Position numbers and translations under genes: made by a program. The notes under the pieces were generated by a model. That model had not been told where the DNA came from. It saw only the letters and a list, made by a program, of their open reading frames with translations, and did not search any database. A stretch of 64,000 bases of DNA from Ancylothrix sp. D3o (GTDB taxonomy: Bacteria; Cyanobacteriota; Cyanobacteriia; Cyanobacteriales; Oscillatoriaceae): NCBI RefSeq assembly GCF_025370775.1, contig NZ_JAMXEX010000001.1, positions 434,001-498,000 on the forward strand, written 5' to 3'. Every line of letters starts with the position of its first letter. Position 1 is the first letter of the stretch. Of this stretch, positions 2,548 to 12,370 are shown piece by piece.

Positions 2548-2620
2548 GGGTGTGTAGCTCAGTGGATAGAGCATCAGATTCCGGTTCTGAGGGTCGGGGG
2601 TTCAAATCCCTCCATACTCG
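2548..2620 (+). tRNA. tRNA-Arg (anticodon CCG)
   Basis: A full cloverleaf can be drawn. The acceptor stem is GGGTGTG/CATACTC with two G-T pairs. The D stem is GCTC/GAGC, the anticodon stem TCAGA/TCTGA, and the T stem GGGGG/CCCTC around loop TTCAAAT. The anticodon loop TTCCGGT places CCG at 34-36, which reads CGG arginine codons. The discriminator base is G, and CCA is not encoded. Confidence 0.95.
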
Positions 2621-2804: not shown

Positions 2805-4388
2805 CTAATCAAAAGCAAAAACCACCGACTGATTTCGCCCGCGTTGCTTAGCCACATAAAGAGCCCGATCTGCTTGCGAAATCAAGGTGTGCGGTGACAG
2901 TTCCAAACTTGGAATTAAAGACGCAATCCCCAAACTAATCGTAACGACATCACTTACCTCAGAACTCTGGTGAACAATCCCCAACTTCTTAATCACAGAA
3001 TGAATCCGATTTGCGACAGCAATTGCGCCTGAGCGATCCGTATTGGGCAAAATAACGACAAACTCTTCCCCTCCATAACGAGCCACTAAATCCGCCGGCC
3101 TGTACACCGTATTTTGCACAGCCTGAGCCAGTTTCATCAAGCACTCATCGCCCTCTTGATGCCCATAAAAATCATTATAACGTTTAAAATAATCGATATC
3201 AAATAGCAACAATGATACAGGGTTTTGTTCTCGAAAAAGTCGCTGCCATTCTTGCTCTAAACGGTCATTAAAACAGCGGCGATTAGCAATTTGAGTCAAA
3301 CCATCAATATTAACCAACTTTTCTAACATTCGCGTAGCGTTTGCCAATTCTTGATTAGAAAGTTCAAGTTGATGGTTAGTCTCTCTCAATTGCGCCTCTG
3401 CTTGTTGGCGTTCTGCTAACTCCTTCTGCAACTTTTCAAAAAGATTGACTTGCTTAATAGCTATCGATAACTGAAGAGAAATTTGTTGAATGAACTCTAT
3501 CTCAATTTCTTGCCAATGACGGGGCGAAGAACATTGATGAATGTAGAATAAACCCCACAAATCGTCAGCCCCATTCAACAATGGGACAACCAAATTAGCC
3601 CGAATCTGAAGTTTTGCCAAAAAAACCCGATGGCAGTCTGAAAGCCCAGCAGTTTCGATATCATCTACGGCGTGAAATCTGCCTTGCTGATAAGAGAAAG
3701 CATACTTTTCGCCAAAGCAATCATCGTGAACTTTTATGCCTACATTAGAATTAACCCCTGTTGCTACAGATTCGGCGACAAATTCCCCATCGCTATAAAA
3801 TCCATTGGGATAGAATTTAAACACCCCTACTCGCTCAGCCTGAAATAACTCGCGGATCTGAGTACAAGCAATGGCAAAAATTTTAGATAAATCAAGAAAT
3901 TGATAAATATTTTGGGTAATATCTCGAAGCAATATCGCCCTTTCGTACTGCTGTCTGAGGGCTATTTCTACCTGCTTTTGAGCGCTGATGGCTATCTCCG
4001 CCGTTTTTTTTGCCTTGAGAAGTTCATCTTCATACTGGATGCGCTGGTGGATAGGGATTAAAATACAGTTGTTTACGCACCTTCCTGCCTTTTCACGCCG
4101 GACTGCATTAACAAGAATAGGCACGTCTTTTCCATGCTTAGAACGCAAAGAAAAGTAAATTTCCTCTGCCTTTCCATGCAGTTTAAGAATCGGGAAAAAA
4201 TGCGTTTGATAAAAAATGCGGCTGGCAATCGGTAGAATTGTTTCGATTTTCCGTCCCCGCAAATCCTCAAGTTCATATCCGAGTAATTCCAGCAGCGTTG
4301 CGTTGATCATCGCAATAGTGCCATCGTCAGTAAACGAGAGAAAGCCACAGGGTGCCATATTAAGTAGCTCGTCTATCTGGTCGGTCAT
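2805..4388 (-). CDS. PAS - cyanobacteriochrome GAF - GGDEF diguanylate cyclase
   Basis: This protein probably makes cyclic-di-GMP under control of two sensor domains. With the ATG at 4388 (MTDQIDELL) it has 527 residues. A longer frame from 4478 would overlap the upstream gene and add no domain. Order: PAS (about 5-120), short coiled coil, GAF (about 150-305), coiled coil, GGDEF (about 360-527). The GAF has both marks of a DXCF cyanobacteriochrome: DDCF at 222-225 (Cys224), and Cys252-His253 followed by the ANLVVPL strand, where the first-type cysteine binds a phycocyanobilin-derived chromophore. The catalytic loop is GGEEF (439-443), and an RxxD inhibitory I-site lies five residues before it (430-433). 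It begins 14 bases after the RsbQ-like gene, so the two are co-transcribed. Chromophore binding is inferred. Confidence 0.88.
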   Translation of the reverse strand: MTDQIDELLNMAPCGFLSFTDDGTIAMINATLLELLGYELEDLRGRKIETILPIASRIFYQTHFFPILKLHGKAEEIYFSLRSKHGKDVPILVNAVRREKAGRCVNNCILIPIHQRIQYEDELLKAKKTAEIAISAQKQVEIALRQQYERAILLRDITQNIYQFLDLSKIFAIACTQIRELFQAERVGVFKFYPNGFYSDGEFVAESVATGVNSNVGIKVHDDCFGEKYAFSYQQGRFHAVDDIETAGLSDCHRVFLAKLQIRANLVVPLLNGADDLWGLFYIHQCSSPRHWQEIEIEFIQQISLQLSIAIKQVNLFEKLQKELAERQQAEAQLRETNHQLELSNQELANATRMLEKLVNIDGLTQIANRRCFNDRLEQEWQRLFREQNPVSLLLFDIDYFKRYNDFYGHQEGDECLMKLAQAVQNTVYRPADLVARYGGEEFVVILPNTDRSGAIAVANRIHSVIKKLGIVHQSSEVSDVVTISLGIASLIPSLELSPHTLISQADRALYVAKQRGRNQSVVFAFD

Positions 4389-4402
4389 GTTGGCAATGCC
4401 GC

Positions 4403-5218
4403 TCAGGCAACATAAGCAGCACTTAAATATTCTTTGATTAAATTGATAGTTTCTTCTGGATGGCTCATGTGCGGGCAATGTCCAGTCGCTTTCATTAGTT
4501 TGAGTGTACTTTTAGGCAAGTGCTGGCCTAAATATTCTCCTACCTCAACCGGCGCAATCATATCTTCCGCACATTGCAAAACCAGAGAAGGTATCGTTAC
4601 TTTTGATAAATCATTGCGGTTGTCTGAGTAAAAAGTTACTTCAGCAAACCGGCTTGCTATCACGGGATCAGTGGAACAAAAACTTGCCTCAAGCTCACGA
4701 GTTAACTCAGGCTGATCAGGATTTTGCATCACCATCGGTGCCAAAAAACTCGCCCAACCTATGTAATTTTTTTCCATGATATCTAGCAAGCCTTCAATAT
4801 CTGCTCTCTCAAAGCCTCCGATATAATCGGGGGGCTGGTTGATGTAGCACGGGGAAGGACTGACGAGAATCAGGTTCTTAAAAAAATGAGGCGCTTGGAT
4901 AGAGGCAAGAATACCAATCACGCTACTTACAGAATGCCCAACAAAAATTACTTCGCTCAAGGCTAATGCTTCACAGATATCGAGAATATCTTGGGCATAG
5001 CCATTCAGGTTGCTGTAGCGCTCGGTGTTATAGGCGGCGATATCTGATTTTCCAGAGCCTACATAGTCAAATAGGATGATTTTATAGTCGTTGAGGAAGG
5101 CCGGCGTTAGGTAGCGCCACATATTTTGATCACACCCGAAGCCATGCGCCAATAGCATGACTTGTGGGCCTTGTCCCAACACCGTTACATTGTTTCGTAG
5201 GAAAACGTTTTCAACCAT
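4403..5218 (-). CDS. rsbQ: RsbQ-family alpha/beta hydrolase (sensor partner of a PAS domain)
   Basis: The 271-residue protein follows Bacillus subtilis RsbQ along its whole length, as far as I recall that sequence. Shared blocks are HGFGCDQNMW, ILFDYVGSGKSD, GYAQDILDICEAL, VGHSVSSVIG, SPSPCYIN, EKNYIGWA, FCSTDPVIA, LQCAEDMIAP and GHCPHMSHP. The triad Ser96, Asp219 and His247 is intact at the same residue numbers. The family also includes plant KAI2/D14. RsbQ is thought to process or bind a hydrophobic small molecule and signal through the PAS domain of RsbP. Here the next gene begins with a PAS domain, so the same pairing is likely, with a diguanylate cyclase as output. The natural ligand is not known. 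Confidence 0.92.
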   Translation of the reverse strand: MVENVFLRNNVTVLGQGPQVMLLAHGFGCDQNMWRYLTPAFLNDYKIILFDYVGSGKSDIAAYNTERYSNLNGYAQDILDICEALALSEVIFVGHSVSSVIGILASIQAPHFFKNLILVSPSPCYINQPPDYIGGFERADIEGLLDIMEKNYIGWASFLAPMVMQNPDQPELTRELEASFCSTDPVIASRFAEVTFYSDNRNDLSKVTIPSLVLQCAEDMIAPVEVGEYLGQHLPKSTLKLMKATGHCPHMSHPEETINLIKEYLSAAYVA

Positions 5219-5650: not shown

Positions 5651-7210
5651 TTATACATCGCTTTTTTTTCCTTGAACTCCTTTAACAATGCGCGAAAGTT
5701 CGCTTTTTTCATCGACGACAATGCGGGAAGGCGAACCGCTGATAATGCGTTCATAGTTACGGAAAGAGTCTTTAATTTCCGGGCCTTTTTCGGTAATTGT
5801 GTATTCACGGATTCCTTTATCATGTCGGGAACCTCGCATTTTAAATACGTTTATTGCCCGCGCCATTTCACCGCGTATTTCTACATATTGCAACATTAAA
5901 ATTGTGTCGGTAATGGTGGAAATATGGGAATCTGTTATCGAATGACTCCCCATAAATTGATCGGTGGTGTTGGTGAAAAAGCCGGTAATTTCTTCTTGTT
6001 TGGCATAGCCGGTTACACCAATCACAAACTGCCGGAAAGCATTGTTACTTACGCCTCTTTCGAGTGCGGAAAGCGAATCAATGGCAATGCGGGAGGGTTT
6101 AAATTGAGCAAGTTCAGATTTAATGATTTGTAGATGATCTTCTAAACCGGCAGACTCTGGATAAGCACAGATAATTTTTAGGAATCCTTTGCGCTCCATT
6201 TCTTCAAAATCAATGCCCCAAGAATAGGCATTTCTTAATAGTTGAGCGCGGGATTCTTCATAGGCGAATAATAAAGCTCTCTCGCCGGTTAAAAAAGCAT
6301 TTTCGATAAATTTGCTCACCAAAAGCGTTTTGCCGGTGCCGGTGGCGCCGGTGGCTAAAATAATCGAATCTTTAAAGAAGCCGCCGCCGCACATAGCATC
6401 GAGCGTTTCAACACCACTGGATACGCGGACATTCGATGAGCGTTGAGTTAATCGCATTGCACCAAGGGGGAAAATATTAATCCCCTCATTGGTCATGGTA
6501 AAGGGATATTCGCCTTTCATGTGGGTGGTGCCGCGTAATTTCAAAATTTCGATAGTACGGCGGCGGCGTTCACCTTCGAGTACATTTCGCATAATCGCTA
6601 CATTATCCGAGACAAACTCTTCGACACCAAACCGCGCCACCTGCCCGTATTCTTCCACCCGTTCAGTTGTCATAATCGTGGTAACACCCACTTGTTTAAG
6701 ACGAGCAACCAAACGGAAAATTTCTCGACGCACCACCGAAGCCGCATCATATTGCTGAAATACTGCTGTTACCGAGTCAATAGAAACTCGCTTTGCTTTA
6801 TATTTGCGGATAGCATATTGAATGCGCTCAATCAAAGCAGATAAATCAAAATTCCCTACCACATCTTGCCCTTCGGGATCTGGGGAAGCATCGAGAATAA
6901 ACAATTTTCCTTGATCGATTAACTTTTGTAAATCCCAACCAAAACTAGCAGCATTTTTAATAATATCCGTAGGGGATTCTTCAAAGGTTACAAAAACCCC
7001 CGCCTCATCAAACAAGGTAATGCCGTTGTAAAGAAATTGTACTGCTAATAAGGTTTTGCCGGTGCCCGAAGTACCGCTGACGAGGGTGGTTCTTCCCACC
7101 GGCAGCCCCCCATGACTGATATCGTCAAACCCCTCGATCATCGTGCGGATTTTTGGGACTCCTACGGGTTGCCAGGTAATGGCGTGTCCGCTTTTCTCGC
7201 CTTCTATCAT
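5651..7210 (-). CDS. kaiC: KaiC, circadian clock ATPase/autokinase
   Basis: KaiC is the hexameric core of the cyanobacterial clock and autophosphorylates and dephosphorylates in a daily cycle. From the ATG at 7210 it has 519 residues, the same length as the Synechococcus protein. A TTG 10 codons upstream is less likely. The CI domain has Walker A GTSGTGKT (46-53) and Glu77/Glu78. The CII domain has GATGTGKT (288-295) and Glu318/Glu319. The phosphorylation loop SDSHIST-type segment places Ser431 and Thr432 exactly at the standard numbers. It is the last gene of kaiA-kaiB-kaiC, 107 bases after kaiB. Confidence 0.98.
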   Translation of the reverse strand: MIEGEKSGHAITWQPVGVPKIRTMIEGFDDISHGGLPVGRTTLVSGTSGTGKTLLAVQFLYNGITLFDEAGVFVTFEESPTDIIKNAASFGWDLQKLIDQGKLFILDASPDPEGQDVVGNFDLSALIERIQYAIRKYKAKRVSIDSVTAVFQQYDAASVVRREIFRLVARLKQVGVTTIMTTERVEEYGQVARFGVEEFVSDNVAIMRNVLEGERRRRTIEILKLRGTTHMKGEYPFTMTNEGINIFPLGAMRLTQRSSNVRVSSGVETLDAMCGGGFFKDSIILATGATGTGKTLLVSKFIENAFLTGERALLFAYEESRAQLLRNAYSWGIDFEEMERKGFLKIICAYPESAGLEDHLQIIKSELAQFKPSRIAIDSLSALERGVSNNAFRQFVIGVTGYAKQEEITGFFTNTTDQFMGSHSITDSHISTITDTILMLQYVEIRGEMARAINVFKMRGSRHDKGIREYTITEKGPEIKDSFRNYERIISGSPSRIVVDEKSELSRIVKGVQGKKSDV

Positions 7211-7317: not shown

Positions 7318-7632
7318 CTACAAATTAGATTCATCTTCGCAGAGTTCTTCGTAGAGTAAATCTAAGCCAATCAAAACTTTTTCTCGATCCGATAAGTCAC
7401 CGATGATTTTGCGGACTGGCGGAGGCAAGATTTTGGATAAAGTTGGGGTGGCTAAAATTTTATCTTCTTCGGCGAGTTGAGGATTTTTGAGCACATCAAT
7501 AACTTTAAGTGCATAGACACCTTGAAACTCTTGTTCAAGGATATTTTTGAGAGTTTTTAAGGCTCGCACTGAATTAGGAGTGTTGCCGGCCACATAAAGC
7601 TTGAGGACGTAGGTTTTTTTAAGGGGATACAT
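7318..7632 (-). CDS. kaiB: KaiB, fold-switching clock protein
   Basis: The 104-residue protein has the thioredoxin-like KaiB sequence ([21 protein letters not shown], then [37 protein letters not shown]). KaiB binds phosphorylated KaiC at dusk, sequesters KaiA and recruits output kinases. The acidic tail ENSL-type end ([10 protein letters not shown]) is typical. It lies between kaiA and kaiC in the same orientation. The 148-base gap upstream leaves room for a separate kaiBC promoter, as in Synechococcus, but I cannot pick one. Confidence 0.98.
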
Positions 7633-7780: not shown

Positions 7781-8695
7781 TTACGAATCTCTAGGAATTG
7801 AACGGCGATACATTTCACACAGATGGGCAATTGTATCAATCAAGGTTAACCGGTAATCGAGCAGAATTTCCTCACTGCGCCCTTCTAATTTTAGCTGTTT
7901 AGAGAACTCATCCATTAAATCCATGTGAATTTCAACAATATTGGTAACAGGGACATCGGCAAAAAAGACAATGTTTACAAAGTTATCAATTTTTTGGTTT
8001 AAGAATTGTTCATCCAGAAAATAATTCAAGACAATTTCCCGATACTCATCTTTAAGAATAGCTAGGAGTTGTTGTTTGTCAGCCGGAGCCAAATTGCGGA
8101 TAAATCCCTGCGGGTTGCGTTTGTAATACACACCTAAGTATCCTAATCGTTCCCGTAACTTTTCTGAGAGCCGGTGCTGCTGCTGCATTAAATAATGCTG
8201 AGATGTCCGTTCGTTGTCGGGGGTATCTTTAGAGGGCGGTATTAAGTCCCCGTTAGGAGAAAGGTTAAGAAATTCAGTCAGTGCGTGGTGAAGAAAATCG
8301 GTAATTTCACCAAGTTTATCGCATCCAACCATCACCTCCGCACGGTGGTAAAAACAAGGAGGAATGTTATCAGCAACCGCTTGAGAAGAAGTAGGAGAAG
8401 AAAAAGAACCCTCCGGGGTATTAGCCTCCACCGGCCCCTTAATAATAACCGCCGGCAACAAAATATCTTGCTCACGCAACCTTGCGGCCAGCGATAACAA
8501 AGCGGGGTTCTGTTCTAAAATCAAGCAATCCAGTTGTTGTTTTTGACCCCCAGCAAAGAGCAAAAATTCAGCCTCAGAAGTAAAAAAACTGATCGCATAG
8601 CGTTCAGCAGGGAAATAGGGCACCAGCTTAGAAGCCAGCACATCGGTGTAAAGGAAAACACAAACAAAAAGTAGGGGTCGCAAAGCGGTAGACAA
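7781..8695 (-). CDS. kaiA: KaiA, full-length clock activator
   Basis: KaiA stimulates KaiC autophosphorylation by binding the KaiC tails. The frame has about 304 residues and both parts: an N-terminal pseudo-receiver (about 1-130) and the C-terminal four-helix KaiC-binding domain (about 190-304) ending in GRSEEILLDYRLTLIDTIAHLCEMYRRS-type sequence. So it is the long form, unlike the short KaiA of Nostoc-type genomes. The start is unsure: the frame opens with TTG at 8695 and another TTG lies four codons in. No ATG fits the beginning of the domain and no strong ribosome-binding site is seen. Confidence 0.95.
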   Translation of the reverse strand: MSTALRPLLFVCVFLYTDVLASKLVPYFPAERYAISFFTSEAEFLLFAGGQKQQLDCLILEQNPALLSLAARLREQDILLPAVIIKGPVEANTPEGSFSSPTSSQAVADNIPPCFYHRAEVMVGCDKLGEITDFLHHALTEFLNLSPNGDLIPPSKDTPDNERTSQHYLMQQQHRLSEKLRERLGYLGVYYKRNPQGFIRNLAPADKQQLLAILKDEYREIVLNYFLDEQFLNQKIDNFVNIVFFADVPVTNIVEIHMDLMDEFSKQLKLEGRSEEILLDYRLTLIDTIAHLCEMYRRSIPRDS

Positions 8696-8965: not shown

Positions 8966-11900
8966 ATGAGCTTCATGTTAACTTCCACTCCAAACCTGCA
9001 AATTTTTATTGAACCGGCCCCCACTGTGGGCCACAACGCCGTCTTAGCAACTGTCCTGAAAGTCTTTTCCCCCACACAAGACCGCGTGGTAGTGCTAAAC
9101 GCAGCTTCACAGCCGGTGGGGATAATTCACTTACGCAGCTTCACCCCTTACCTGATGGCTTCCCTGGCCACCCAAACCCACCAAGACTCGCCCGAAACCC
9201 AAACTCCAGCCCACACCGGCCTCGACTTACAACAACCACTTTATGCCAGCGTTGGCCTCCTTGAATCCTTGCCAAGTTTAAGGGCCGATCTGAGCTTAAG
9301 CCAATTGGGGCCACATTTTTTAGAACACAGCGATAGCGATAGCCAAAATTTTTCCATAGCGCCACCAGAACAGTCAAATTTTTTGGCAAACAATTCGGGG
9401 ACAAGAAAGCAAGAGTGGGCCATTGTTTCAGCCACCGGCGAGTTTCTCGGACTGCTCGACCGCTACCGTTTATTAGAATTTTTAGCAAACCAATACCAAG
9501 TCAGCCAAAACAAACCGGCTGCAAACCCCTTGTGTGTGCCGTTTTTTGCTTCCCTCCAAAACCAGCCTCAACCAAACGAAGACACAGCGTGTCTGGAAAC
9601 TCTGCACACCCTCATTGAAATTTTCGATTTGTTGCCGTTGCCTTTATGCTTAGAAACCTCAACAGGCAGTATCATAGCTTGCAATCAAGCCTATGCTCTA
9701 CATTTTCAAGACTCCCAAGACCCCCATATTCAACGCAGTTTCAAAGCCCTAGAGACAGACAACTCAAACCATGACATAAAAACACACTCAGCCTCAGATT
9801 TTCCCCCGCTCACCAAACAGACAATCTCTAGCGCCAGCCGACAAACTGCGACAACCCGTAACAGCAATTTTTCTGAAACACCCAGCGGCGAATTTGCTTA
9901 CTCTTGGGGGGTTTGCGTCATACCCGCCGAGTCGGAAAAAGTCTGGCAGTTTGTTAAAATGCCCCTCAATATTGCAATGCGGGTGCAAAACACCGGCAGT
10001 CTGGGTTCACAAACAACCACCAACTCTAAACAAACCACCCCAGAAACCCACTCTCATGCAGCCAAAGCCAACCAAAGAAAGGGCTTCGCCACACCGGCTT
10101 CTGATCACAGCCCAGAAAATGAGAAAGAGACCGTCTGTCTGGTGTTGGCGCAAGATGTCACAGAATACCAGCAAATTGCCAAAGAACTCGCCGCAAAAAA
10201 TGCCGATTTAGTACAACTCAACCGCCTCAAAGATGATTTTCTTGCCTGCATCAGCCACGAACTCAAAACCCCCTTGACTGCTGTTTTAGGGCTTTCTAGC
10301 TTGCTAAAAGACCAAACCATCGGCCAACTCAATGAACGTCAAGCCCGCTATGCGCGTTTAATTTACCAAAGTGGCCGGCACTTGATGGTGGTGGTCAATG
10401 ATATTTTAGATTTGACTCGCATGGAAAGCGGCCAGATGGAATTGCTGGTGGAGCCGGTTAATGTGTCCACCGTCTGCGAACGGGCTGTTCATAGCGCTTG
10501 GCATCTACAACCGACAGAAAGAGGCCGCAGCGAGGAGGAACTCGGCAGCGAGGCATACCAAAACAATTTTCCACCAGGCTTTACGCTGTCTATTGAACCA
10601 AACCTCGAAATAATGGTGGCCGACGAGTTGCGTTTGCGGCAAATGTTGGTCAATCTATTATCAAATGCCTTTAAATTCACTGAACCCAACGGCAAGGTAG
10701 GTCTAAAAGTCAGCCTTTGGGAAGGGTGGATTGCTTTTACAGTTTGGGACACCGGCATCGGCATCCCCGATGACAAACAACACCTGATTTTTCAAAAATT
10801 CCAACAATTAGAAAACCCTTTAACTCGCCGGTTTGAAGGTGTGGGGTTGGGGTTGGTGGTGGCGCGAGGTTTGGCTCGTTTGCACGGTGGCGATGTTACT
10901 TTTATTTCCTGTGAAGGCAAAGGTAGCGAATTTACTTTGCTACTACCGCCGCAACCGCCTGAACAAAATTCTACCCCTCGCACGTCTTCTTCTCCTCGTC
11001 ATCGTTTGGTGTTAATTGTTGAGGCCGTGCCAAGATTTATTGAACAGTTGAGTTCTCAACTAACCAGTTTAGGTTATCGCGTTGTTATTGCTCGCACCGG
11101 CACCGAGGCTCTTGATAAGGCTCGTCGCTTTTCTCCAGAGGTGATTTTTCTCAATCCCGTTTTGCCGATGCTTTCCGGTTGGGATGTGCTGACTTTGCTC
11201 AAGTCGGATGCGGTAACGTGCAATATTCCAACGGTGATCGCCGCAACTCAAGCCGAAAAAGAGCAGGCTTTTCAGTTACGAGCAGATGGTTTTTTGAGGT
11301 TGCCGGTGCAGTTAGAAGCGTTGCGCGGCGTTTTGGCGAAATTGGGTTCCCAACACCAGGAAAGAACTACAAGATTAACAGTTCTGCGTTTAAATATCCG
11401 CTCTTGCAATTTTAAGGGTGCCGACACACCCACCACTGAGGAATTCCCAACTGTTGACCGGCTCAATAATTTATTACACCAATACGATTATCGGGTTTTG
11501 GAAGCCGAAGATTTGGAAGGTGCAGAAATGCTGGCTCGTGTTTGGCAACCGGATGTGGTTTTGCTCGATAGCGGTGAGAGTTTGTCTGATGCGGATGAGT
11601 TTTTTAAAAAATATTCTCAAAATTGCCCGCGTCTTGCTTGTTTGCCTCTGGTGACGCTTGATCGCTTAACCACTGAGGCTGCTTCTCTTGTTCCTGGTTT
11701 GGCTGTGTTTCCCTGTTTGAGCGGCTTGGGGGCAAGCTCGCTTCCTGCTAATGATATTGCTTGTCGATTGCCTGAAGTTTTGCTCGGTGTTATTGAACAA
11801 GCGGCTGGTAACAATAGTTTGCCGGTGATTTGTGTTTTGGATTTTTCTGTTTTGCCTGATTTAGCAAAAAACCGGCTTTCTTCTGTGGATAGCAGAAATG

Positions 11901-12370
11901 ATTGGTGTCAAGCTTTATTACAATATCTCCAAACTGCCGGTTATCGCGGTTTGATGGGTCAGTCTTGGACGGAAGTTTCGCGGCAATTGGAAACAAAAAG
12001 TATTGATTTACTTTTAATTAATTTCCGCAATTATCCGACGGATCAGTCTGTGATGGAGGCTTTGACTGCATTGCATAATTTACCCGATAAACCGCCCATT
12101 TTAGTTGTGTTTCAGCCTAGTTCGGAGGCGTTTTTTGGCAAGGGTATTGTTGATCAAGGCTGGCGAAATATTGCAATTGCAACAGCTATTAAACAGCAGG
12201 AGTCTGTTGTTACTTCTTCTGGTTTAAATCATTTCATTGCAAGTGAAACTCGGCCATCAGAACCACTGCTTGAGCCTCTGTTAAATGAAATGGCTACTAA
12301 GGTATGCTCTGCTTCTTTATCGATGGCTGAGTTGTTAGAGGAAATTCATTCAATTCTTAAGGCTCAATAA
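8966..12370 (+). CDS. Hybrid sensor histidine kinase with degenerate receiver domains, next to kaiABC
   Basis: The 1134-residue protein begins with a region holding two short strands of CBS or PAS-like character (about 20-190), then a PAS-like segment with low-complexity inserts (about 210-400). Next come HisKA with FLACISHELKTPL (phospho-acceptor His431) and HATPase with an N-box (MLVNLLSNAFKFTEP), DTGIGIP and GLGLVVARGL. Three receiver-like domains follow. The first has Asn730 where the phosphorylated Asp should be (FLNPVLP). The second keeps an Asp at 868 (LLDSGE) but is otherwise atypical. The third has LLINFRN, again Asn. The divergent position beside kaiA suggests a role in clock input or output, comparable to CikA with its pseudo-receiver; this is inference from context. 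Confidence 0.88.
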   Translation: MSFMLTSTPNLQIFIEPAPTVGHNAVLATVLKVFSPTQDRVVVLNAASQPVGIIHLRSFTPYLMASLATQTHQDSPETQTPAHTGLDLQQPLYASVGLLESLPSLRADLSLSQLGPHFLEHSDSDSQNFSIAPPEQSNFLANNSGTRKQEWAIVSATGEFLGLLDRYRLLEFLANQYQVSQNKPAANPLCVPFFASLQNQPQPNEDTACLETLHTLIEIFDLLPLPLCLETSTGSIIACNQAYALHFQDSQDPHIQRSFKALETDNSNHDIKTHSASDFPPLTKQTISSASRQTATTRNSNFSETPSGEFAYSWGVCVIPAESEKVWQFVKMPLNIAMRVQNTGSLGSQTTTNSKQTTPETHSHAAKANQRKGFATPASDHSPENEKETVCLVLAQDVTEYQQIAKELAAKNADLVQLNRLKDDFLACISHELKTPLTAVLGLSSLLKDQTIGQLNERQARYARLIYQSGRHLMVVVNDILDLTRMESGQMELLVEPVNVSTVCERAVHSAWHLQPTERGRSEEELGSEAYQNNFPPGFTLSIEPNLEIMVADELRLRQMLVNLLSNAFKFTEPNGKVGLKVSLWEGWIAFTVWDTGIGIPDDKQHLIFQKFQQLENPLTRRFEGVGLGLVVARGLARLHGGDVTFISCEGKGSEFTLLLPPQPPEQNSTPRTSSSPRHRLVLIVEAVPRFIEQLSSQLTSLGYRVVIARTGTEALDKARRFSPEVIFLNPVLPMLSGWDVLTLLKSDAVTCNIPTVIAATQAEKEQAFQLRADGFLRLPVQLEALRGVLAKLGSQHQERTTRLTVLRLNIRSCNFKGADTPTTEEFPTVDRLNNLLHQYDYRVLEAEDLEGAEMLARVWQPDVVLLDSGESLSDADEFFKKYSQNCPRLACLPLVTLDRLTTEAASLVPGLAVFPCLSGLGASSLPANDIACRLPEVLLGVIEQAAGNNSLPVICVLDFSVLPDLAKNRLSSVDSRNDWCQALLQYLQTAGYRGLMGQSWTEVSRQLETKSIDLLLINFRNYPTDQSVMEALTALHNLPDKPPILVVFQPSSEAFFGKGIVDQGWRNIAIATAIKQQESVVTSSGLNHFIASETRPSEPLLEPLLNEMATKVCSASLSMAELLEEIHSILKAQ

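Follow-up and report, generated by a model that had tools for sequence, protein, structure and literature searches.

A putative RsbQ-linked cyanobacteriochrome diguanylate cyclase encoded next to kaiABC in the cyanobacterium Ancylothrix sp. D3o

The RsbQ-PAS bipartite module was surveyed by Nadezhdin, Brody and Price in 2011, in the form of Bacillus subtilis RsbQP and 44 homologues (PMC3183031; like the other papers cited by PMC number, drawn on here in part). In this module the gene for the hydrolase RsbQ lies upstream of one encoding a protein with an N-terminal PAS domain, followed by a coiled coil of at least 21 residues that leads to an output that is either a PPM, a kinase or a diguanylate cyclase. 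The PAS domain is distinguished by nine residues (C10, L13, L48, Q53, F55, C56, Y59, E72 and P86) and by the lack of a DIT motif; F55 and Y59 of the B. subtilis domain are required for contact with RsbQ (PMC3183031). All 45 of these examples come from organo-heterotrophs. Here we describe a gene pair of this type from a phototroph, the cyanobacterium Ancylothrix sp. D3o, found in a window of 64,000 nucleotides (contig NZ_JAMXEX010000001.1, positions 434,001 to 498,000; all coordinates below are those of the window). It consists of an rsbQ homologue and, 14 bases downstream (4389-4402), a gene for a PAS-GAF-GGDEF protein. Like the described modules, it has an upstream RsbQ, an N-terminal RsbP-type PAS domain with class residues and no DIT motif, and one of the three known outputs; unlike them, it has a DXCF-type cyanobacteriochrome GAF domain inserted between PAS and output, and it lies behind the clock genes kaiABC. 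The parts are of known kinds, and it is their combination, and its place beside the clock genes, that appear to be undescribed. The features of the pair are as follows.

2805..4388, minus strand: PAS-GAF-GGDEF protein, predicted diguanylate cyclase (527 amino acids; ATG at 4388, stop at 2805)
2820..3311, minus strand: GGDEF domain, residues 360-523 (Pfam PF00990, E 4e-54)
3060-3101, minus strand: RxxD I-site and GGEEF (motif search)
3312..3509, minus strand: long helix from GAF to cyclase, residues 294-359 (AlphaFold2 secondary structure)
3453..3902, minus strand: cyanobacteriochrome GAF domain, residues 163-312 (Pfam GAF, E 4e-19; PDB 6oap, 8k9o, 3vv4)
3630..3635, minus strand: canonical Cys252-His253 (aligned to CH of TePixJ)
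3714..3725, minus strand: DDCF motif with the second cysteine, Cys224 (aligned to DPCF of TePixJ)
3903..4031, minus strand: signalling helix linking PAS to GAF, residues 120-162 (AlphaFold2 secondary structure)
4050..4388, minus strand: RsbP-type PAS domain, residues 1-113 (PF13426/PF00989, TIGR00229, class positions)
4403..5218, minus strand: rsbQ homologue, alpha/beta hydrolase (271 amino acids; match to RsbQ 1wom, Pfam PF00561 E 3e-21, catalytic triad)

Judged from its sequence, the pair fits the features of the RsbQ-PAS module that we tested, with a photoreceptor added, and the arrangement recurs in cyanobacteria. Our preferred reading, to which we assign a probability of roughly 0.6, is that light and the ligand of RsbQ would jointly gate a single cyclase.

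The best solved relative of the hydrolase, over residues 4-267, is B. subtilis RsbQ (PDB 1wom; E 2e-114, 385 bits), followed by 3qvm, a bacterial protein that is uncharacterised (299 bits), and, third in the ranking, by the plant KAI2/D14 family at 222 bits or less. An identity as a KAI2/D14-like protein was rejected on the difference between these scores, and one as a metabolic esterase because the listed NCBIfam equivalogs (BioH, PcaD, RutD and others) fell far under their cut-offs. A preliminary description of the locus had named an RsbQ triad of Ser96, Asp219 and His247, which was verified at 4931-4933, 4562-4564 and 4478-4480 respectively; the 14-base spacing it gave agrees with the reading frame coordinates.

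Support from Pfam for the PAS domain is weak (PF13426 at 4e-5, under the cut-off, and PF00989 at 8.5e-5, barely above it), and the NCBIfam sensory_box model TIGR00229 matches at E 3e-8. Its class was read from individual positions, after it had been aligned to the PAS domains of other RsbQ pairs, with a Neobacillus sequence (L084), rather than B. subtilis itself, guiding the numbering. C14, L17, L52, R57, F59, Y60, H63, P66, E76 and P90 of the window protein fall at positions 10, 13, 48, 53, 55, 56, 59, 62, 72 and 86, such that the B. subtilis letter is present at six of the nine class positions (C10, L13, L48, F55, E72 and P86), P62 being kept as well. The three differences (Q53 to R, C56 to Y and Y59 to H) each occur in other RsbQ-linked sequences, and R57, Y60 and H63 fit the published basic, aromatic and neutral-aromatic classes, the assignment of class to position being our own reading of PMC3183031. 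F59 and H63 are the counterparts of the contact residues F55 and Y59, with histidine at the latter position in six of the 13 other aligned rows. No DIT motif was found at the end of the window domain, which reads CILIPIHQRIQYEDELL (...HQRIQYEDELL). By these positions the domain, previously noted simply as a PAS, belongs to the RsbP-PAS class.

The GAF domain is a DXCF cyanobacteriochrome by alignment. DDCF (residues 222-225) and Cys252-His253 fall in the same alignment columns as the DPCF and CH of TePixJ (3vv4, 2m7u and 4fof; E 8e-28 to 9e-27), and the surrounding stretches RANLVVP and HQ-S-PR-WQEIEI are shared; the definition of the DXCF motif for the second cysteine was taken from PMC11284453. 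Both cysteines singled out in the preliminary description thus sit in the chromophore columns, so that the reading was not refuted by the alignment which that description had named as a test of it. A motif arising by chance, or miscalled, was rejected through this alignment to solved cyanobacteriochromes together with the conservation described below. Unlike TePixJ, which has a chemotaxis output, the window GAF is coupled to an RsbP-type PAS domain and a cyclase. In typical DXCF domains both cysteines bind the bilin, and blue- and green-absorbing states interconvert (PMC11284453). A bilin reductase of family PF05996 is encoded in the genome (E 5e-76).

The partner is predicted to be a diguanylate cyclase on the basis of its intact motifs: an FDIDYFK metal site at residue 396, an RPAD I-site at 430 and GGEEF at 439-443, with the RxxD five residues ahead of the GGEEF (RPAD-LVARY-GGEEF, residues 430-443); the GGEEF and an RxxD I-site had been noted earlier. 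AlphaFold2 modelling of the 527 residues, using an alignment of 11 rows, gave a mean predicted local distance difference test score (pLDDT) of 80 and a predicted template-modelling score (pTM) of 0.40, with a predicted chain order of PAS, 43-residue helix, GAF, 66-residue helix and GGDEF. The second helix (294-359) is likely to form a coiled coil in a dimer, judging from this monomer model rather than from a coiled-coil predictor. The top Foldseek matches were the Idiomarina bacteriophytochrome-controlled cyclase (6et7 and 5llx) and then WspR, whose GGDEF domain alone (3i5b) was matched with a template-modelling (TM) score of 0.93 of the target; a cyanobacteriochrome kinase, 6ob8, was matched at 42% identity. 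The Idiomarina enzyme likewise joins a photoreceptor, which we take to be a phytochrome core, to a GGDEF domain through a long helix, with 17-18% identity to the window protein and weak overall superposition; we know of no hydrolase partner for it. SesA (Tlr0924) is a cyanobacteriochrome diguanylate cyclase. To our knowledge, neither SesA nor Cph2 has a partner RsbQ or an RsbP-type PAS domain. The window protein resembles both in having a bilin-type GAF apparently placed to control a GGDEF domain, Cph2 being described as a diguanylate cyclase with a photoreceptive GAF (PMC10581220).

These parts suggest the following mechanism. RsbQ, an alpha/beta hydrolase with a small-molecule ligand, would bind the N-terminal PAS domain of its partner, and the RsbQ-bound PAS domain would set the state of a dimeric cyclase via the signalling helix. 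The bilin predicted for the GAF domain would be attached through Cys252 and, reversibly, through Cys224, with a blue/green-type photocycle as the typical case. RsbQ acting on the PAS domain and light acting on the GAF domain, whatever the sign of each, would both feed the helix through which the paired GGDEF domains of the dimer are aligned; because the GAF sits between PAS and cyclase, they may act in series on one GGDEF. The cyclase would then make cyclic-di-GMP, checked by binding of its product at the RxxD site. With 29 GGDEF matches in the genome, of which two are parts of a single reading frame, the enzyme has many counterparts and would need to act locally or at particular times.

In order to determine how widespread this arrangement is, RsbQ loci were gathered from four sources: the best 80 of 591 matches, 12 of which were cyanobacterial; 30 matches in 22 of 60 genomes, of which seven with at least 57% identity were read at length besides that of the window; an order-level set, in which 24 of 388 genomes had a match and all were read; and a class-level set with 28 of 388, from which 20 of the 23 new loci were fetched (G523, G564 and G672 were omitted). 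RsbQ this close (E at most 1e-90) is thus found in 28 of 388 genomes at class level and 24 of 388 at order level. The 56 cyanobacterial loci were reduced to 47 distinct ones by merging nine in which RsbQ was identical to one already counted.

In 40 of the 47, the gene for an RsbP-PAS partner neighbours rsbQ in the same orientation. Nineteen of these partners are PAS-GAF-GGDEF proteins, assigned by BLAST to the window GGDEF, and 19 are histidine kinases, 15 assigned by Pfam and four (L119, L120, L149 and L220) by 88-96% identity to those scanned; the remaining two are a broken frame (L009) and a remnant (L157). The other seven loci comprise four without a partner (L012, L026, L153 and L226), two cut by contig ends (L142 and L156) and one that has decayed (L217). 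As some loci are cut in this way, the absence of a partner or of kaiABC from them is no proof. Two of the partnerless genes come from Planktothrix (L026) and Pseudanabaena (L012). Outside the cyanobacteria, a relative of the PAS domain was present in the flanks of 66 of 68 loci and a GGDEF domain in 13 of 68; no relative of the window GAF was found in the fetched flank of any of the 68. A second class of cyanobacterial RsbQ-like hydrolases, with 34-47% identity, was also observed at 22 loci (L096-L117), where the flanks fetched, of up to 1.5 kb on each side, showed no PAS partner.

An intact DXCF motif together with the canonical cysteine was found in six partners, five with a GGDEF output (the window, L013, L143, L144 and L151) and one a kinase (L014); L009 reads DYCF ahead of its frame break, and the partner at L143, 815 bases from rsbQ, has an extra GAF domain. 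RsbQ beside PAS-GAF(DXCF)-GGDEF, the arrangement for which the preliminary description had proposed a genome search, is thus present at four of these loci outside the window. Its claim of a photoreceptor within the module is supported for the window by alignment, and does not extend to the family in general, given that only six of the 40 partners have both sites. CBCR-type (cyanobacteriochrome-type) GAF domains in RsbQ-PAS histidine kinases were seen at L011, L014 and L213, the first two having a receiver domain as well; DXCF is intact only in L014, the others reading VHCF (L011) and DRIF (L213). The GAF was thus retained although the output changed. A second recurrent context of rsbQ is found in one group of genomes (f33), where at L143, L144, L151 and L157 the pair lies near a conserved gene for around 130-160 amino acids instead of kaiABC; L142, which also belongs to f33, did not show this gene.

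Conservation of the chromophore residues was counted in the 12 most similar GAF domains of the family, window included, the other eleven being 49-68% identical to that of the window; L212 (28% identical), L009 (broken frame) and kinase partners with GAF domains of another kind were left out. Cys252 is present in 12 of 12, Asp222 in 11 and Cys224 in 10.

The neighbourhood of the pair, which was absent from the preliminary description, is its most testable part. The further features are these.

2548..2620, plus strand: tRNA-Arg(CCG) (ARAGORN); the rsbQ pair lies between this tRNA and kaiC
5651..7210, minus strand: kaiC (NCBIfam TIGR02655 circ_KaiC, 1025 bits), 432 bases before rsbQ
7318..7632, minus strand: kaiB (NCBIfam TIGR02654, E 3e-56)
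7781..8695, minus strand: kaiA (Pfam KaiA, E 2e-61)
8966-12370: hybrid histidine kinase, divergent from kaiA

The pair is therefore directly downstream of kaiA-kaiB-kaiC on the same strand. The same order of kaiA, kaiB, kaiC, rsbQ and partner on one strand is found at L010, L015, L121 and L145, and at L156 as far as a cut inside rsbQ, all in Microcoleus or Microcoleus-type genomes; the latter (L121, L145 and L156) are so called because their genus code (g5) is also that of G263 and G276, two genomes with rsbQ loci that match L015 and L010, which are named Microcoleus records. The gap between kaiC and rsbQ is 1.1-1.4 kb in these loci, against 432 bases in the window. With the window and the truncated L156 included, the link is present in six of the 47 distinct cyanobacterial rsbQ loci, a count on which proximity to kaiABC was rejected as a trait of cyanobacteria in general. 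In G218, also of g5, rsbQ is paired with a kinase gene and kaiABC is not close by; G008, a further g5 genome (listed as 99% complete), gave no kaiC match at E 1e-150, although such a match was obtained in 21 of the 22 genomes examined. The kinase divergent from kaiA is kept in the Microcoleus-type loci and in the relatives G001-G004, G018 and G097.

The distance from kaiC to tRNA-Arg(CCG) is 88 bases in G003, 195 in G004, 303 in G001, 958 in G002 and 1,476 in G018, relatives in which the slot is empty or occupied by other genes; with the pair inside, it is 3,030 bases in the window and about 3,900 in L010, L121 and L145. Hence the slot is variable, with the pair in it in two lineages. No tRNA-Arg was found in the L146 stretch (the same locus as L015), which has a tRNA-Gly, nor in the 15 kb fetched around kaiC of L185 (G097). 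In an Rfam scan of the window and of three Microcoleus-type loci, tRNAs were the only hits, and the tRNA was rejected as a part of the pair elsewhere, as none of 29 loci, among them the kai-linked L156 at its contig end, had any tRNA in the fetched stretch. A promoter scan before rsbQ found one site against a mean of 1.0 in shuffled sequences, which is chance level. In the RsbQ tree, the window joins the Microcoleus kai-linked loci with weak support (85/52); in the cyclase tree it groups instead with L144 (81/84), from another family, where the pair is located elsewhere than kaiABC, although a single clade of kai-linked rows was not rejected (approximately unbiased test, p-AU 0.17). The link with kaiABC is real as gene order in two lineages, and a functional link is a candidate.

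Several observations weigh against a joint gate for light and ligand. In the model, pLDDT around the DXCF loop is 59 (residues 221-230) and 65 (231-240); the pTM of 0.40 means that the arrangement of the domains is not predicted, individually credible as they are, and the full-length Foldseek superpositions are poor (TM 0.36-0.48 of the query, root-mean-square deviation over 20 Å). Both chromophore cysteines have been lost, with PAS and GGDEF retained, from nine more distant GAF domains (L019, L023, L034, L222-L225, L229 and L230, from Nodosilinea and others), so the module does not need light. The GAF at L212, too weakly aligned to be grouped, has no DXCF and a cysteine in the canonical column, and in the Microcoleus-type loci, which make up the second lineage linked to kai, the motif is degenerate (DPCA, DSCG or DPYC). 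RsbP and RsbQ of B. subtilis have been named as putative light-responsive proteins, and rsbP and rsbQ mutants retained the blue-light response tested (PMC10403212); a light role for the module outside the cyanobacteria is therefore not supported by the part of that paper used here.

Such losses would suit a GAF domain that is a structural or dimerising spacer blind to light, leaving RsbQ and the PAS domain as the sole real input, as in Bacillus, and some partners (L018 and L124) dispense with a GAF entirely. Yet drift would hardly have spared Cys252 in all, and Cys224 in ten, of twelve domains when the other eleven are only 49-68% identical to that of the window, and we consider a blind spacer in the window unlikely. 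The nine domains without cysteines keep 27 of the 36 residues invariant in the set of 12 in at least seven of the nine, and a branch of the cyclase tree with full support separates the seven of them that it includes from the group of the window. From this pattern, bilin attachment looks to have been under selection in one part of the family and given up in a different part. The alternative that the hydrolase is a chance neighbour with a metabolic job of its own, next to an ordinary light-controlled cyclase, could draw on the four rsbQ genes with no adjoining partner; it is very improbable, since the same-strand neighbours in 40 of 47 cyanobacterial loci and the flanks of 66 of 68 others carry a related PAS domain, which argues that the pairing is not chance, and since the window PAS has F and H at the positions of contact with RsbQ.

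The pair may also serve, or be served by, the clock: the unit could be a clock-linked input, transcribed with or near kaiABC and adjusting the clock through cyclic-di-GMP, or it could be driven by the clock. Raising or lowering cyclic-di-GMP alters the phase, period and amplitude of the Synechococcus elongatus clock (PMC13001216, which states that the endogenous genes and mechanisms are unresolved), the gene order and, in the window, L010, L121 and L145, the slot between kaiC and tRNA-Arg(CCG) are shared between lineages, and a simple consensus scan, which is weak evidence, detected no minus-strand terminator between kaiC and rsbQ. Set against these are the six loci out of 47, the empty or otherwise filled slots of G001-G004 and G018, the fetched stretch of L015/L146 without a tRNA-Arg, the wider gap in Microcoleus-type loci, a cyclase tree that does not place the window with Microcoleus, and an RsbQ tree that joins them with little support; moreover, cyclic-di-GMP had no direct effect on the rhythms of purified Kai proteins in the same study (PMC13001216). 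We regard a clock link of this kind as a tentative, unlikely proposal. The fuller version, in which the cluster of kaiABC, rsbQ and cyclase is a clock-input device, with RsbQ reading a metabolite and the GAF the colour of light, and the joint cyclic-di-GMP signal setting Kai phase or gating its output, is more doubtful still.

Within the reach of a full-text literature search, which did not extend to subscription papers, no report was found of a cyanobacteriochrome together with RsbQ, of kaiABC together with RsbQ, or of a DXCF cyanobacteriochrome diguanylate cyclase with a hydrolase. Nor was a kaiABC gene neighbourhood with GGDEF found, a 2013 survey of cyanobacterial cyclic-di-GMP domains lying outside the literature searched; an RsbQ-linked photoreceptor could be mentioned in that survey, in Enomoto 2015 or in others similarly placed. 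Neither 'GAF' nor 'cyanobacter' is present in the main text of the 2011 survey of the module (PMC3183031). Within these bounds, the searches are in line with the earlier view that a photoreceptor within the module had not been described.

Across the family, light is best described, from the pattern of conservation, as an optional input to the RsbQ-PAS module, and the photoreceptor as a cyanobacterial addition that is kept in part of it; the nine cysteine-less proteins form a natural set of possibly blinded relatives. As the photoreceptor is built into the RsbQ-PAS protein, the hydrolase and light inputs could be separately switchable and readable by a single enzyme assay. The locus in the window also offers a concrete candidate for the shift of the clock by cyclic-di-GMP (PMC13001216): if the clock-input proposal were true, the cluster would be the missing endogenous source of this effect, in filamentous species.

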